48,674 nt of DNA from Candidatus Nitrosopumilus sp. (lineage in GTDB: Archaea; Thermoproteota; Nitrososphaeria; Nitrososphaerales; Nitrosopumilaceae): contig JAOMJV010000006.1 of assembly GCA_028351415.1 (NCBI GenBank), positions 1 to 48,674 of the forward strand, given 5' to 3'. Every line of letters begins with the position of its first letter. Within the stretch, counting starts at the first letter, position 1. This document shows, piece by piece, positions 12,640-16,115 of this stretch. The notes below the pieces were generated by a model, which did no database searches, was not told the DNA's origin, and was given only the letters and a program-made list of their open reading frames with translations. The position numbers and the translations under genes are program-made.

Positions 12640-13176
12640 ATGAAAAGTGAGTTAATAGAAAATAGAATAATAGTATGGAGTATTGAGGACTCGAGAAAAC
12701 TTTTCAGTCAAGGGTATTATGGAAAACCAATTGGCATTCCAAAACCAAAAATTGAAGAAATAGATGCACCGTTAGTTTTAGATCTAATTGAAGGATTGTA
12801 TCTTTTAAAAAATAAAAAAATTACAATTAATAAATTAAAAAAGAAAATAACAATTGAAGAATTAATTGAAATAGGTAAAAATGCTTATTTTGATTTTGAA
12901 AATAAATATCAAGTTTACAAACATTTTCGGGACAAAGGATACATAATTAATCCAGGAATAAAATTTGGATGTGATTTTGCAGTTTATGAAAAAGGTCCAG
13001 GGATTGATCATTCACCATATTTGATCCAAGTGTACGATAGAAACGAGACGATTCCAGCAACAGAAATTACAATTACAGGGAGACTTGCATCATCAGTTAG
13101 AAAACAATTCATTTTTGCAATTCCTAAAGGAAAAGACAAAGTGGACTTTATTGGATTAGATTGGTGGAAAGCTTAA
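12640..13176 (+). CDS. endA: tRNA-splicing endonuclease
   Basis: A 178-residue endonuclease that cuts the bulge-helix-bulge motif of archaeal pre-tRNAs. The catalytic triad is Y116 (DFAVYEKGPG), H124 (GIDHSP) and K155 (VRKQF), all in the C-terminal domain after the N-terminal alpha/beta domain. The length fits the short single-domain-pair form that assembles as a homo- or heterotetramer. A TATA-like run (catataca/tataatat) lies about 20-30 nt ahead of the ATG. The last 4 bases overlap the convergent unknown gene. Confidence 0.93.
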   Translation: MKSELIENRIIVWSIEDSRKLFSQGYYGKPIGIPKPKIEEIDAPLVLDLIEGLYLLKNKKITINKLKKKITIEELIEIGKNAYFDFENKYQVYKHFRDKGYIINPGIKFGCDFAVYEKGPGIDHSPYLIQVYDRNETIPATEITITGRLASSVRKQFIFAIPKGKDKVDFIGLDWWKA

Positions 13177-13550
13177 ACAGATTTTATGTGTCCAGCAATT
13201 CTATCATAAATTTCAAAAAGTTCCGGAGTGATACCAAATGAAATATGATTATCCCATGTACCCCTTATTCTAACAGCAGTGTCAGTAGGTTCAACATAGA
13301 TGGTTGCACCCTTAACAGATTGTTTAGAAATCATATTATTTAGTTCATCATCAGCATTTAATTTTAAAGATAAACCACCATGGCCATTCCATTCAACTTT
13401 AGTAACAACCTTTGAAGCAAAATGACCTTGTGTATGAAGGCGGGTTTTAGCAGTATAATTTACAGCAGATGAGCCAACATTTTTTCGAACAATAAAATGT
13501 GCTTGAAATCTATCTTGTGCGCCCCATGGAAGTGGATTTGGATCTGGCAT
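13173..13550 (-). CDS. Unknown protein, second gene of a pair
   Basis: A 125-residue soluble protein that I do not recognise. It has alternating strands with a conserved-looking basic/aromatic patch (DRFQAHFIVRKN, VEWNGHGGLSLKL) and a C-terminal helix after FGITPELFEIYD. It starts 2 bases after the stop of the gene at 13553-13789, so the two form an operon and may act together. It is convergent with endA with a 4-base overlap. No cysteine cluster, signal peptide or membrane segment is seen. Confidence 0.7.
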   Translation of the reverse strand: MPDPNPLPWGAQDRFQAHFIVRKNVGSSAVNYTAKTRLHTQGHFASKVVTKVEWNGHGGLSLKLNADDELNNMISKQSVKGATIYVEPTDTAVRIRGTWDNHISFGITPELFEIYDRIAGHIKSV

Positions 13551-13552
13551 GA

Positions 13553-13789
13553 TTATCCCTTTTGAATAATTTGTACGACGTCAATGTTAGAATTTTTAAT
13601 ATCAATACACCCCTTGTTAGTAACCATCCTGGCAGTTTGAGAAAAATATCCACTGTAGTAATCATCAGTTTCAACAGCATCAGTTGCAATATCTTTAGAC
13701 TCAGAATCTACACCGATCTCTTTTAACATGGCGCTAAATTTTTCAGGCCATGTTTGATAGATGAATGTGTCAGATTCGGTATCATGCAT
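13553..13789 (-). CDS. Unknown protein, first gene of a pair
   Basis: A 78-residue acidic protein (start MHDTESDTF) that I cannot assign to a family. It contains YQTWPEKFSAML, a central acidic stretch with DDYYSGYF, and a short C-terminal beta-like tail. I chose ATG 13789 over a GTG at 13801 because a TATA-like box at 13813-13819 is centred 27 nt ahead. The next gene follows after 2 bases. The gene is divergent from the SDR gene with about 100 bases between the starts. Confidence 0.65.
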   Translation of the reverse strand: MHDTESDTFIYQTWPEKFSAMLKEIGVDSESKDIATDAVETDDYYSGYFSQTARMVTNKGCIDIKNSNIDVVQIIQKG

Positions 13790-13812
13790 AAAAAACTTCA
13801 CATCATACCCAC

Positions 13813-13887: not shown

Positions 13888-15660
13888 ATGTTAAAATTTC
13901 AAAATAAAACATCTTTAATCACAGGGAGCGGTACAGGAATAGGTCAAGCCATTGCCAAAAAATTTGTGGAAAATGGTGCAAGTGTCATCATACTAGGGCG
14001 AAGAAGAGAGCCATTAGATGAAACATCTAAAATGTTAGAGTCAATTATTGCAGAAAAACAGAGCGGTGCAAGTGTTAGAATTTTTTCAGGCGTAGATGTA
14101 AGTGATGAAAATGCAATGAATAAGATGTTTGAGGATTTAAAGAATGATAACGTAACAGTAGATAATATTGTCAATAATGCAGGTGTTTCAGGTCCAGTCA
14201 CATGTTTTCCTAATGCATCATTAGATGAATTCAAAAGCACAATTGGAATTCATCTTACAGGTACATTTTGGGGATCAGTTCAAGCACTCAAAGTAATGAA
14301 AGAAGGAGGAAAAATTATTACGATTTCAACATTTTTTACAGAAGAAAAGCCACTAGAACAAAGACCGTATAGATTTAGAAGCCCATATACTGCAGCACAA
14401 GGTGCAAAGAATAGATTAGCAGAATTAATGTCATGGGAGTTAACAGATAAAGGAATTATTTCAATTGCAACAAATCCAGGTCCAGTTCATTCAGATAGAA
14501 TTTACAAAACAGTATATCCAAAAGCAGCAGCAGAATTTATGAGAGTTGGCGGATTTGAAGATCTTAATCCAACAGAAGTAGATGCTGCAAACAAAGAATT
14601 ACTTTCACTATTGGGAGAAGATGACTCAGTTATCAAAGAAGGAATTGCAAATGCTGCAACAAAATTAGCAAATGGAAAAGATGTTGTTAAATTAGCCGAG
14701 ACATTAACTAATCTATTAAATAAAATACAAACAATTGCAGAAAAAGTTCAAAATAATACTTCGCATATGATTGCAAATAAAGAATTCTTAACTCAAGGAC
14801 AAGTGGCAGAAACAGTTCTAAATTTGTGTGATGATGAAATTGCAAAAATTGTTAATGGTAAAGTAATTCCAGGAGACAGAGTATTTTATCCAGTCAAACC
14901 ACATATTGGAACTACAGCACCAGGAGTGCATCAACCAAATTTTACGGGAAAGGCAGTTGTATTTACAATTGATGCAACAGACAAAATAGATGCAGAGCGC
15001 GTAGAATTTTTAGCACAACATGTTGAAAAGAACGGAGGAAAAGTTGCATGCTTCATATCACAAACAACACCAACTGATCTTCAAGAATATATCAGTAGTA
15101 AATTCCACTCACACATAGTAGACATTAAAAATCCTGAAGAAGTTCAAAAATGGTTAAACACAGCACGAACAAACATTGGAGAGATTTTAGGGGTAATACA
15201 CATAACAGGAAAATTACCAGAAATTGAAAAATTAACTGAATTAACTAGACCAGCATGGGAAGAATTAACTGAGAAATTTATATCAACTCCTGCAACAGTT
15301 GCACAAAGAGCACTTGAGCAATTTGTACCAGGAGGTAAAGAAGATCCGCGTCTGTATAAAGATGCAAAAGGAGCAATCATGATTATCGGTCCAGATTTAC
15401 CAATAGGAAGAAAAGTAACAGGAACGCAAAGAGCCCAAGTGGAAGTTTTCAGAGGAGCATTAAGACCATTCACCACCACAGTTAATCAAGAACTAAGTGA
15501 TGTGTTAAAATCAAAAATCAGAATGTTTACAATTTTCCCAGGTTCAGTTACAGGTTCAGAACCGAACAATCAAAGAATAGCAGACGCATTTAATTTTCTA
15601 GTTACAGAAAATGCACTTTTATCTGCAGAAGTAACATTCTGTGTTGACGAAACAAGATAA
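13888..15660 (+). CDS. Double-domain SDR resembling one half of malonyl-CoA reductase
   Basis: A 590-residue protein, twice the size of a normal short-chain dehydrogenase. Residues 1-250 form an SDR domain with G13-x3-G17-x-G19, N96-N97-A98-G99, S147, Y167 and an NPGP segment (196-199) followed by HSDRIYKT. Residues about 350-590 form a second, degenerate Rossmann-like domain with conserved-looking VTGTQRAQVEVFRGALRPF. An SDR followed by a degenerate SDR, and the S-T-F-F-x2-E-K...R-P-Y loop, resemble one half of the bifunctional Chloroflexus-type malonyl-CoA reductase as I remember it. The Y-x3-K lysine is Q171, so catalysis may be altered; K174 is close. Malonyl-CoA or malonic-semialdehyde reduction is only a hypothesis. 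Confidence 0.8.
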   Translation: MLKFQNKTSLITGSGTGIGQAIAKKFVENGASVIILGRRREPLDETSKMLESIIAEKQSGASVRIFSGVDVSDENAMNKMFEDLKNDNVTVDNIVNNAGVSGPVTCFPNASLDEFKSTIGIHLTGTFWGSVQALKVMKEGGKIITISTFFTEEKPLEQRPYRFRSPYTAAQGAKNRLAELMSWELTDKGIISIATNPGPVHSDRIYKTVYPKAAAEFMRVGGFEDLNPTEVDAANKELLSLLGEDDSVIKEGIANAATKLANGKDVVKLAETLTNLLNKIQTIAEKVQNNTSHMIANKEFLTQGQVAETVLNLCDDEIAKIVNGKVIPGDRVFYPVKPHIGTTAPGVHQPNFTGKAVVFTIDATDKIDAERVEFLAQHVEKNGGKVACFISQTTPTDLQEYISSKFHSHIVDIKNPEEVQKWLNTARTNIGEILGVIHITGKLPEIEKLTELTRPAWEELTEKFISTPATVAQRALEQFVPGGKEDPRLYKDAKGAIMIIGPDLPIGRKVTGTQRAQVEVFRGALRPFTTTVNQELSDVLKSKIRMFTIFPGSVTGSEPNNQRIADAFNFLVTENALLSAEVTFCVDETR

Positions 15661-15662
15661 GA

Positions 15663-16115
15663 TTGAAGAAATTTTCAGAATTTATAGTCGGCGAATCATT
15701 CTATTCCACATGCAGTATTTCAAATAATGAATTAGAATCATATCTAAAATTTTCAAGAATTAAAAATATATTTTTAGAAAATAAAATTAAAGAAAAACAG
15801 CAAATAATTTCAGGAAGAGCAACATTATCAAGAATGGAAGGGGAATTTACAAGGTTAGAACAAATTTATGGAAATCATATTATTTTTCTTGGAACAGACG
15901 GAGACGCAGAATGGGGGAACAGAAACACTCGATTTCTAAAACCACACTATACAGAGCAAGTATTAAAATTAAAATTTACAATTACAAAAAAAGAAGACAT
16001 AGACAAAGAATTTGGAAAAATTACAATAGATTATGAAGCAAGTACACAAGATAACGAGTTAGTAGTAATTTCAAAAAAAAATATTTACAGAATTAGAAAA
16101 GAGTTAGAACAGTAA
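15663..16115 (+). CDS. MaoC-like hot-dog dehydratase family protein
   Basis: A 150-residue single hot-dog protein. The N terminus reads FSEFIVGESFYSTCSIS, the usual MaoC opening (G-E-x-F, then a T/S-containing strand). A helix follows with LESYLKFSRIKNIFLE and IISGRATLSRMEG, where MaoC proteins have the A...G...hydratase loop. The classic D-x4-H catalytic pair is not clear, so this may not be an active enoyl-CoA hydratase. The only start is TTG at 15663, 2 bases after the SDR stop, so translation is coupled. Its partner suggests an acyl-CoA pathway step. Confidence 0.65.
   Translation: MKKFSEFIVGESFYSTCSISNNELESYLKFSRIKNIFLENKIKEKQQIISGRATLSRMEGEFTRLEQIYGNHIIFLGTDGDAEWGNRNTRFLKPHYTEQVLKLKFTITKKEDIDKEFGKITIDYEASTQDNELVVISKKNIYRIRKELEQ

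Follow-up and report, generated by a model that had tools for sequence, protein, structure and literature searches.

Malonyl-CoA reductases and the AOA cycle

The malonyl-CoA reductase (MCR) of Sulfolobales derives from the aspartate-semialdehyde dehydrogenase family. The bifunctional MCR of Roseiflexus is built from SDR domains, and its YxxRxxY motif, which is conserved in SDR1 and SDR3, binds the malonate moiety, the last Tyr being catalytic; a Tyr743-Arg746 pair has been proposed to protonate in the malonyl-CoA step, and Thr165-Tyr178-Lys182 to act in the semialdehyde step (PMC10470521).

Ammonia-oxidising archaea (AOA) make up much of the dark-ocean microbial plankton and fix CO2 via the thaumarchaeal 3-hydroxypropionate/4-hydroxybutyrate (HP/HB) cycle, for which they must reduce both malonyl-CoA and succinyl-CoA to the semialdehydes. 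The MCR gene of Nitrosopumilus was listed as unidentified in 2018 and 2020 (PMC6038301, PMC6964070), in agreement with an earlier note on the DNA studied here, which had treated the thaumarchaeal enzyme as not clearly assigned. Likewise, the acryloyl-CoA reductase has no assigned gene in Nitrosopumilus (PMC6038301). Malonic semialdehyde reductase activity is provided in Nitrosopumilus by an iron-type alcohol dehydrogenase, and for Nitrosocaldus cavascurensis only SDRs of about 30% identity to the Chloroflexus enzyme are mentioned, as semialdehyde reductase candidates (PMC5797428). Our literature search found the 590-aa protein described below nowhere named as an MCR candidate, and an earlier proposal may exist.

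The locus, its predicted fold and its active site

The window, a stretch of 48,674 nucleotides from Candidatus Nitrosopumilus sp. (contig JAOMJV010000006.1), has Nitrosopumilus MAGs as its closest database loci (95-99% identity). It contains an ORF of 590 aa with an ATG start, which is uninterrupted in >100 related loci, and 2 bases past its stop an ORF of 150 aa begins with TTG (Table 1); the earlier note had described both correctly, the first as a double-SDR protein and the second as MaoC-like. Divergent to the SDR gene lie the genes of two small proteins, at 13173-13550 (-) and 13553-13801 (-); a Pfam search of the two gave nothing over the cut-off, and both families recur in 10 of the 21 AOA regions compared. 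Since no HP/HB-cycle gene was recognised beside the SDR gene in the AOA neighbourhoods compared, operon logic was dropped as an argument for an MCR function.

Table 1. Features of the locus, with positions in the window
Feature	Position	Strand	Basis
MCR-half-like double-SDR protein, 590 aa	13888..15660	+	ORF; intact orthologues; AlphaFold model and Foldseek
N-terminal active-type SDR domain with helical insertion, residues 1 to about 335	13888..14892	+	PF00106 1e-35; model
TGSGTGIG dinucleotide-binding loop, residues 12-19	13921..13944	+	T12, G13, G15, G17, I18 and G19 invariant
GRR, residues 37-39, NADP-type signature after beta 2	13996..14004	+	invariant in 25 diverse orthologues
His122 at catalytic Asn position of SDR tetrad	14251..14253	+	H in 111/113 (2 are X); N in 54/67 ordinary SDRs
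Thr148 at catalytic Ser/Thr position (Thr165 of Roseiflexus MCR SDR1)	14329..14331	+	113/113; PMC10470521
YRFRSPYTAAQ, residues 161-171: YxxRxxY ending in catalytic Tyr167, then Gln171	14368..14400	+	113/113; motif role PMC10470521
GPVHSDR, residues 198-204	14479..14499	+	motif in 113/113 orthologues, 4/4 MCR, 0/67 ordinary SDRs
Helical insertion between beta 6 and beta 7, residues 205-325	14500..14862	+	model secondary structure; invariant columns
C-terminal degenerate SDR domain, residues 345-590	14920..15657	+	profile matches to SDRs; alignment; full-length Foldseek
MaoC-fold (hot-dog) protein, 150 aa, TTG start, without hydratase Asp/His	15663..16115	+	model; Foldseek; motif; patchy presence

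The first SDR domain is the only domain that Pfam detects in the 590-aa protein; it has the Rossmann fold with invariant TGxxxGxG and NNAG that is typical of classical SDRs, and the GRR signature suggests a preference for NADP. The degenerate second SDR domain is detected only by profile (3edm, E 1.8e-6) and in the structural model, and it carries the conserved stretch GP..P.GKK..G..RAR.EVFRGALRP..T.NQEL. An AlphaFold2 model calculated with 25 diverse orthologues as input had a pLDDT of 87.9 and a pTM of 0.88. When this model was compared with the PDB by Foldseek, the best 25 matches (E 8e-26 to 7e-19) were without exception MCRs, whole or as halves, namely those of Chloroflexus and Roseiflexus and the bacterial enzyme 6k8s/6k8v, with a TM of about 0.7 over the whole chain and of 0.78 normalised to MCR-N 8aew. 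They were followed by MFE-2 (2et6) with 3e-18 and an rmsd of 18, and then by single SDRs from 6e-14. Thus, the two SDR domains, the active-type one first and the degenerate one second, are arranged as in MCR, and the layout of one MCR half that the earlier note had seen is borne out; two fused halves for two steps are absent, the protein being a single half.

In sequence, the picture is different. The SDR domain alone scored 85 and 75 bits against MCR domains versus 94 for 4iuy and 91 for FabG, and a profile search with the C-terminal domain matched general SDRs, with no specific link to MCR SDR2 or SDR4. Since the first domain is not specially close and the second has no specific relative, it is the arrangement and the active-site motifs that link the protein to MCR, rather than its sequence as a whole.

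We counted these motifs in 113 distinct orthologues, 4 MCR SDR domains (sequences taken from HMMER alignments, a search of plasmids for MCR-like DNA having yielded nothing of use) and 67 ordinary archaeal SDRs. YxxRxxY and GPxx[SG][DE]R were each present in all 113 orthologues and all 4 MCR domains but in none of the 67 ordinary SDRs; their sharing is not due to chance. Indeed, the (S/T)FF..EK...PY..R..Y loop and the GPVHSDRI segment, which had been noted before as common with MCR, are both found in the 590-aa protein, and their core motifs occur in both MCR halves. Arg204 of GPVHSDR aligns with Arg773 of Chloroflexus MCR-C, and the R773A/Q variants of that enzyme (8aeo/8aeq) were among the Foldseek matches. 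The sequence IYKTVYPKAA.EF.R (window 14500-14544, residues 205-219), which opens the helical insertion, is near-invariant across AOA in a region where SDRs usually vary most; it is probably a substrate lid.

The Asn-Ser-Tyr-Lys tetrad of classical SDRs was not matched, His-Thr-Tyr-Gln being found instead. Of the Ser/Thr-Tyr-Lys triad, Thr148 and Tyr167 are retained and Lys is replaced by Gln171, which occupies the place of the YxxxK Lys in 113/113 orthologues; the ordinary SDRs aligned at this position have Lys (53/53). Therefore, canonical SDR chemistry should not be assumed. Moreover, the Roseiflexus enzyme cannot do without Lys753 in MCR-C or Lys182 in MCR-N, and because their exchange for Ala severely impairs or abolishes activity in both halves (PMC10470521), the altered tetrad is the strongest reason for caution. 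By strict standards the protein falls outside the MCRs, since the Lys of the triad is absent and the organisation is that of a single half. Thr148, Tyr161, Arg164, Tyr167, Gln171, Lys174 and Arg204 are identical in the 113 sequences, even where overall identity falls to about 45%, and from this alignment we read the active site as altered but conserved.

Distribution, kinship and the MaoC-like neighbour

Strong matches (E < 1e-30) to the 590-aa protein were found, among 400 Nitrososphaeria genomes searched, only in families f1, f2, f3 and f5, where about 269 of 291 genomes had one (counted by hand); the 22 without one are for the most part incomplete assemblies. None of the 109 genomes of the other 20 Nitrososphaeria families had a full-length orthologue, their best matches being ordinary SDRs that scored no more than about 67 bits. 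Archaeal amoA (PF12942) was likewise present in families f1, f2, f3 and f5 only (249 genomes); labels such as Nitrosocaldaceae-like for f2, and that of f3, were inferred, partly from amoA. A profile search of 300 Thermoproteota genomes gave nothing comparable outside AOA. The protein is specific to AOA, and nearly all AOA have it. Three genomes (G067 and G137 of f2, G112 of f5) had amoA and the double SDR and no strong iron-type alcohol dehydrogenase (PF00465) of the sort that reduces malonic semialdehyde.

Trees of the SDR domains placed the orthologues and MCR apart from ordinary archaeal SDRs with support of 95/63 when both MCR halves were included, on long branches and with archaeal outgroups only. 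For the same split, support was 99/92 with MCR-C only and 100/96 with MCR-N only, again with long-branch warnings. The ordinary SDRs were all archaeal, and the trees are support for a kinship with MCR, not proof of it.

The model of the 150-aa neighbour (pLDDT 88.8) has a MaoC-type hot-dog fold (Foldseek, 1q6w, 9.2e-8), as the earlier note had suspected, and a Pfam search did not recognise MaoC in it. Its start codon is ATG in 82 and TTG in 11 of 95 relatives. The catalytic Asp and His of (S/G)DxNPxH are absent; 50 relatives aligned by eye have F-S-R-(I/V)-(K/R)-N or close variants. The gene lies directly downstream of the SDR gene in many Nitrosopumilaceae and is missing, or reduced to a C-terminal tail, in others. 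It is absent from Nitrosocaldaceae-like genomes and from the SDR neighbourhood in Nitrososphaeraceae-like genomes; a few of the latter carry a distant copy at another site. In three loci (L008, L011, L038), only the C-terminal codons of the MaoC-like gene (NIYRIKK) seem to be left right after the SDR gene, a loss that appears to be recent and inside Nitrosopumilus.

An obligate partnership of the two proteins was ruled out, since several Nitrosopumilus have only the tail of the MaoC-like gene or none of it, and most other AOA lineages lack it. The dehydratase of the cycle is already known (Nmar_1308; PMC7845616). Because the hydratase Asp and His are gone, many AOA that retain the SDR protein lack the neighbour and the dehydratase step is taken, the acyl-CoA redox/dehydration pair proposed earlier is not supported. 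The MaoC-like protein is dispensable and an accessory at most.

Proposed function and comparison with known systems

We give an even chance to the reading, drawn from sequence and model, that the 590-aa protein works by itself, much as an MCR half would, as an NADPH-dependent, CoA-acylating reductase of a dicarboxylic acyl-CoA, with malonyl-CoA reduction in the HP/HB cycle of AOA as its most likely task; the candidate may also act on succinyl-CoA. The link to this enzyme had been drawn before, and the AOA-specific, near-universal distribution, the motifs, the fold, the SDR-domain trees, the absence of a spare alternative from the AOA genomes tested and the documented gap in gene assignment speak for it, but the change of the tetrad to H-T-Y-Q had been left out.

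If the protein, like MCR-N, were instead a reductase of a dicarboxylic semialdehyde (malonic or succinic) or a 3-oxo acid and not CoA-acylating, the resemblance of Thr148 and GPxxSDRI to MCR-N would be explained. Moreover, families f2 and f5 are without a strong iron-type alcohol dehydrogenase, and therefore another enzyme must reduce malonic semialdehyde there. However, the Lys of the Thr-Tyr-Lys triad that is used for aldehyde reduction is missing, the loop EEK...PY..R..Y is closer to MCR-C than to MCR-N, and Nitrosopumilaceae and Nitrososphaeraceae retain the 590-aa protein despite having the alcohol dehydrogenase. We regard a semialdehyde reductase as unlikely.

A similarly low probability is assigned to the possibility that the single aspartate-semialdehyde dehydrogenase of AOA doubles as MCR and that the 590-aa protein catalyzes some other AOA-specific carboxylate reaction. 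An asd_EA-type protein is indeed present in AOA genomes, and it belongs to the family that gave rise to the MCR of Sulfolobales. In each of 12 AOA genomes tested, exactly two proteins were over the cut-off for Semialdhyde_dh (PF01118); those examined were of housekeeping type, namely ArgC/LysY, with a lysine/arginine-type neighbourhood, and the archaeal aspartate-semialdehyde dehydrogenase (asd). No additional paralogue of the Sulfolobales MCR type was found in these 12 genomes, so that AOA, unlike Sulfolobales, have no duplicated copy, and this possibility leaves the AOA-specificity of an MCR-like protein with a malonate motif unexplained. An aldehyde dehydrogenase was ruled out as the conserved MCR of AOA because two near-complete single-contig genomes (G046 and G103) have no member of the family (PF00171). 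The AOA genomes tested hold no spare alternative for malonyl-CoA reduction.

Still less probable is a catalytically inert or regulatory protein that binds NADPH or acyl-CoA. That every orthologue departs from the tetrad at two of its four positions would suit such a pseudoenzyme, but identity of seven active-site residues across the 113 sequences would be unusual for a dead site, and polyketide ketoreductases with Asn and Lys of the tetrad exchanged are active. Finally, an assignment as the acryloyl-CoA reductase still lacking a gene in Nitrosopumilus (PMC6038301), with a FabI-like Tyr-x6-Lys pair formed by the invariant Tyr167 and Lys174, is very improbable, since the helix register fixed by YxxRxxY puts Gln171 and not Lys174 at the position of the catalytic Lys, enoyl-ACP reductases are not among the best matches and acryloyl-CoA offers the YxxRxxY site no free carboxylate.

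For the malonyl-CoA reductase reading, we infer an activity, a substrate and roles for His122, Gln171, Arg204 and the second domain as follows. NADPH would be bound by the first SDR domain (TGSGTGIG and GRR), and the substrate carboxylate would be gripped by Tyr161, Arg164 and Tyr167 of YxxRxxY; Arg204 would sit in the lid. The thioester carbonyl, placed beside Thr148, would take the hydride, and the proton would come from the Tyr161-Arg164 pair, as proposed for SDR3 of bacterial MCR. His122 and Gln171, which stand in the places of Asn and Lys, could have exchanged roles by analogy to the Asn/Lys swap of the polyketide ketoreductases. The degenerate second domain would be a scaffold for the first and offer basic residues for CoA, and malonic semialdehyde would be handed to a separate reductase (Nmar_1110 in Nitrosopumilus). 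More tentatively, and we think it rather doubtful, a single-half relative of bacterial MCR with an exchanged tetrad would serve AOA as one promiscuous malonyl-/succinyl-CoA reductase that stops at the semialdehyde, would fill two steps of the cycle that have no assigned gene and would have common ancestry with the Chloroflexus enzyme. Since the protein is conserved, AOA-specific and equipped with the malonate site known from bacterial MCR, a single expression construct makes the MCR gap testable. If the malonyl-CoA reductase reading is true, one enzyme family would connect two carbon-fixation cycles thought to be independent, and acyl-CoA reduction would have a further, new active-site solution.

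Among known systems, MaoC-like hydratases (1q6w, 4ffu, PhaJ) share the hot-dog fold of the 150-aa neighbour, which lacks the catalytic Asp and His of hydratase 2. The malonyl-/succinyl-CoA reductase of Sulfolobales, a member of the aspartate-semialdehyde dehydrogenase superfamily, would catalyze the same reaction in the same cycle but has an unrelated fold, and AOA have no extra copy of its family. Peroxisomal MFE-2, in its (3R)-hydroxyacyl-CoA dehydrogenase part (2et6), also consists of two fused SDRs with a MaoC hot-dog partner (hydratase 2), but its fit is much poorer (TM 0.55, rmsd 18), both of its SDRs are catalytic and it has no malonate motif, whereas the archaeal hot-dog protein is separate, inactive-looking and dispensable. 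The bifunctional MCR of Chloroflexus and Roseiflexus (MCR-N and MCR-C; PDB 8hjw, 8hi4, 8aew, 8a8t) differs from the archaeal protein in having two halves in about 1220 aa instead of one in 590 aa; the archaeal protein has Gln for Lys and His for Asn, and identity in the structural alignment is low, at 16-20%. In length, the archaeal helical insertion appears to lie between MCR-N and the MCR-C extra domain. Common to both are an SDR and a degenerate SDR in the same arrangement, YxxRxxY, GPxx[SG][DE]R, the active-site Ser/Thr and Tyr and the NADP-type loop.
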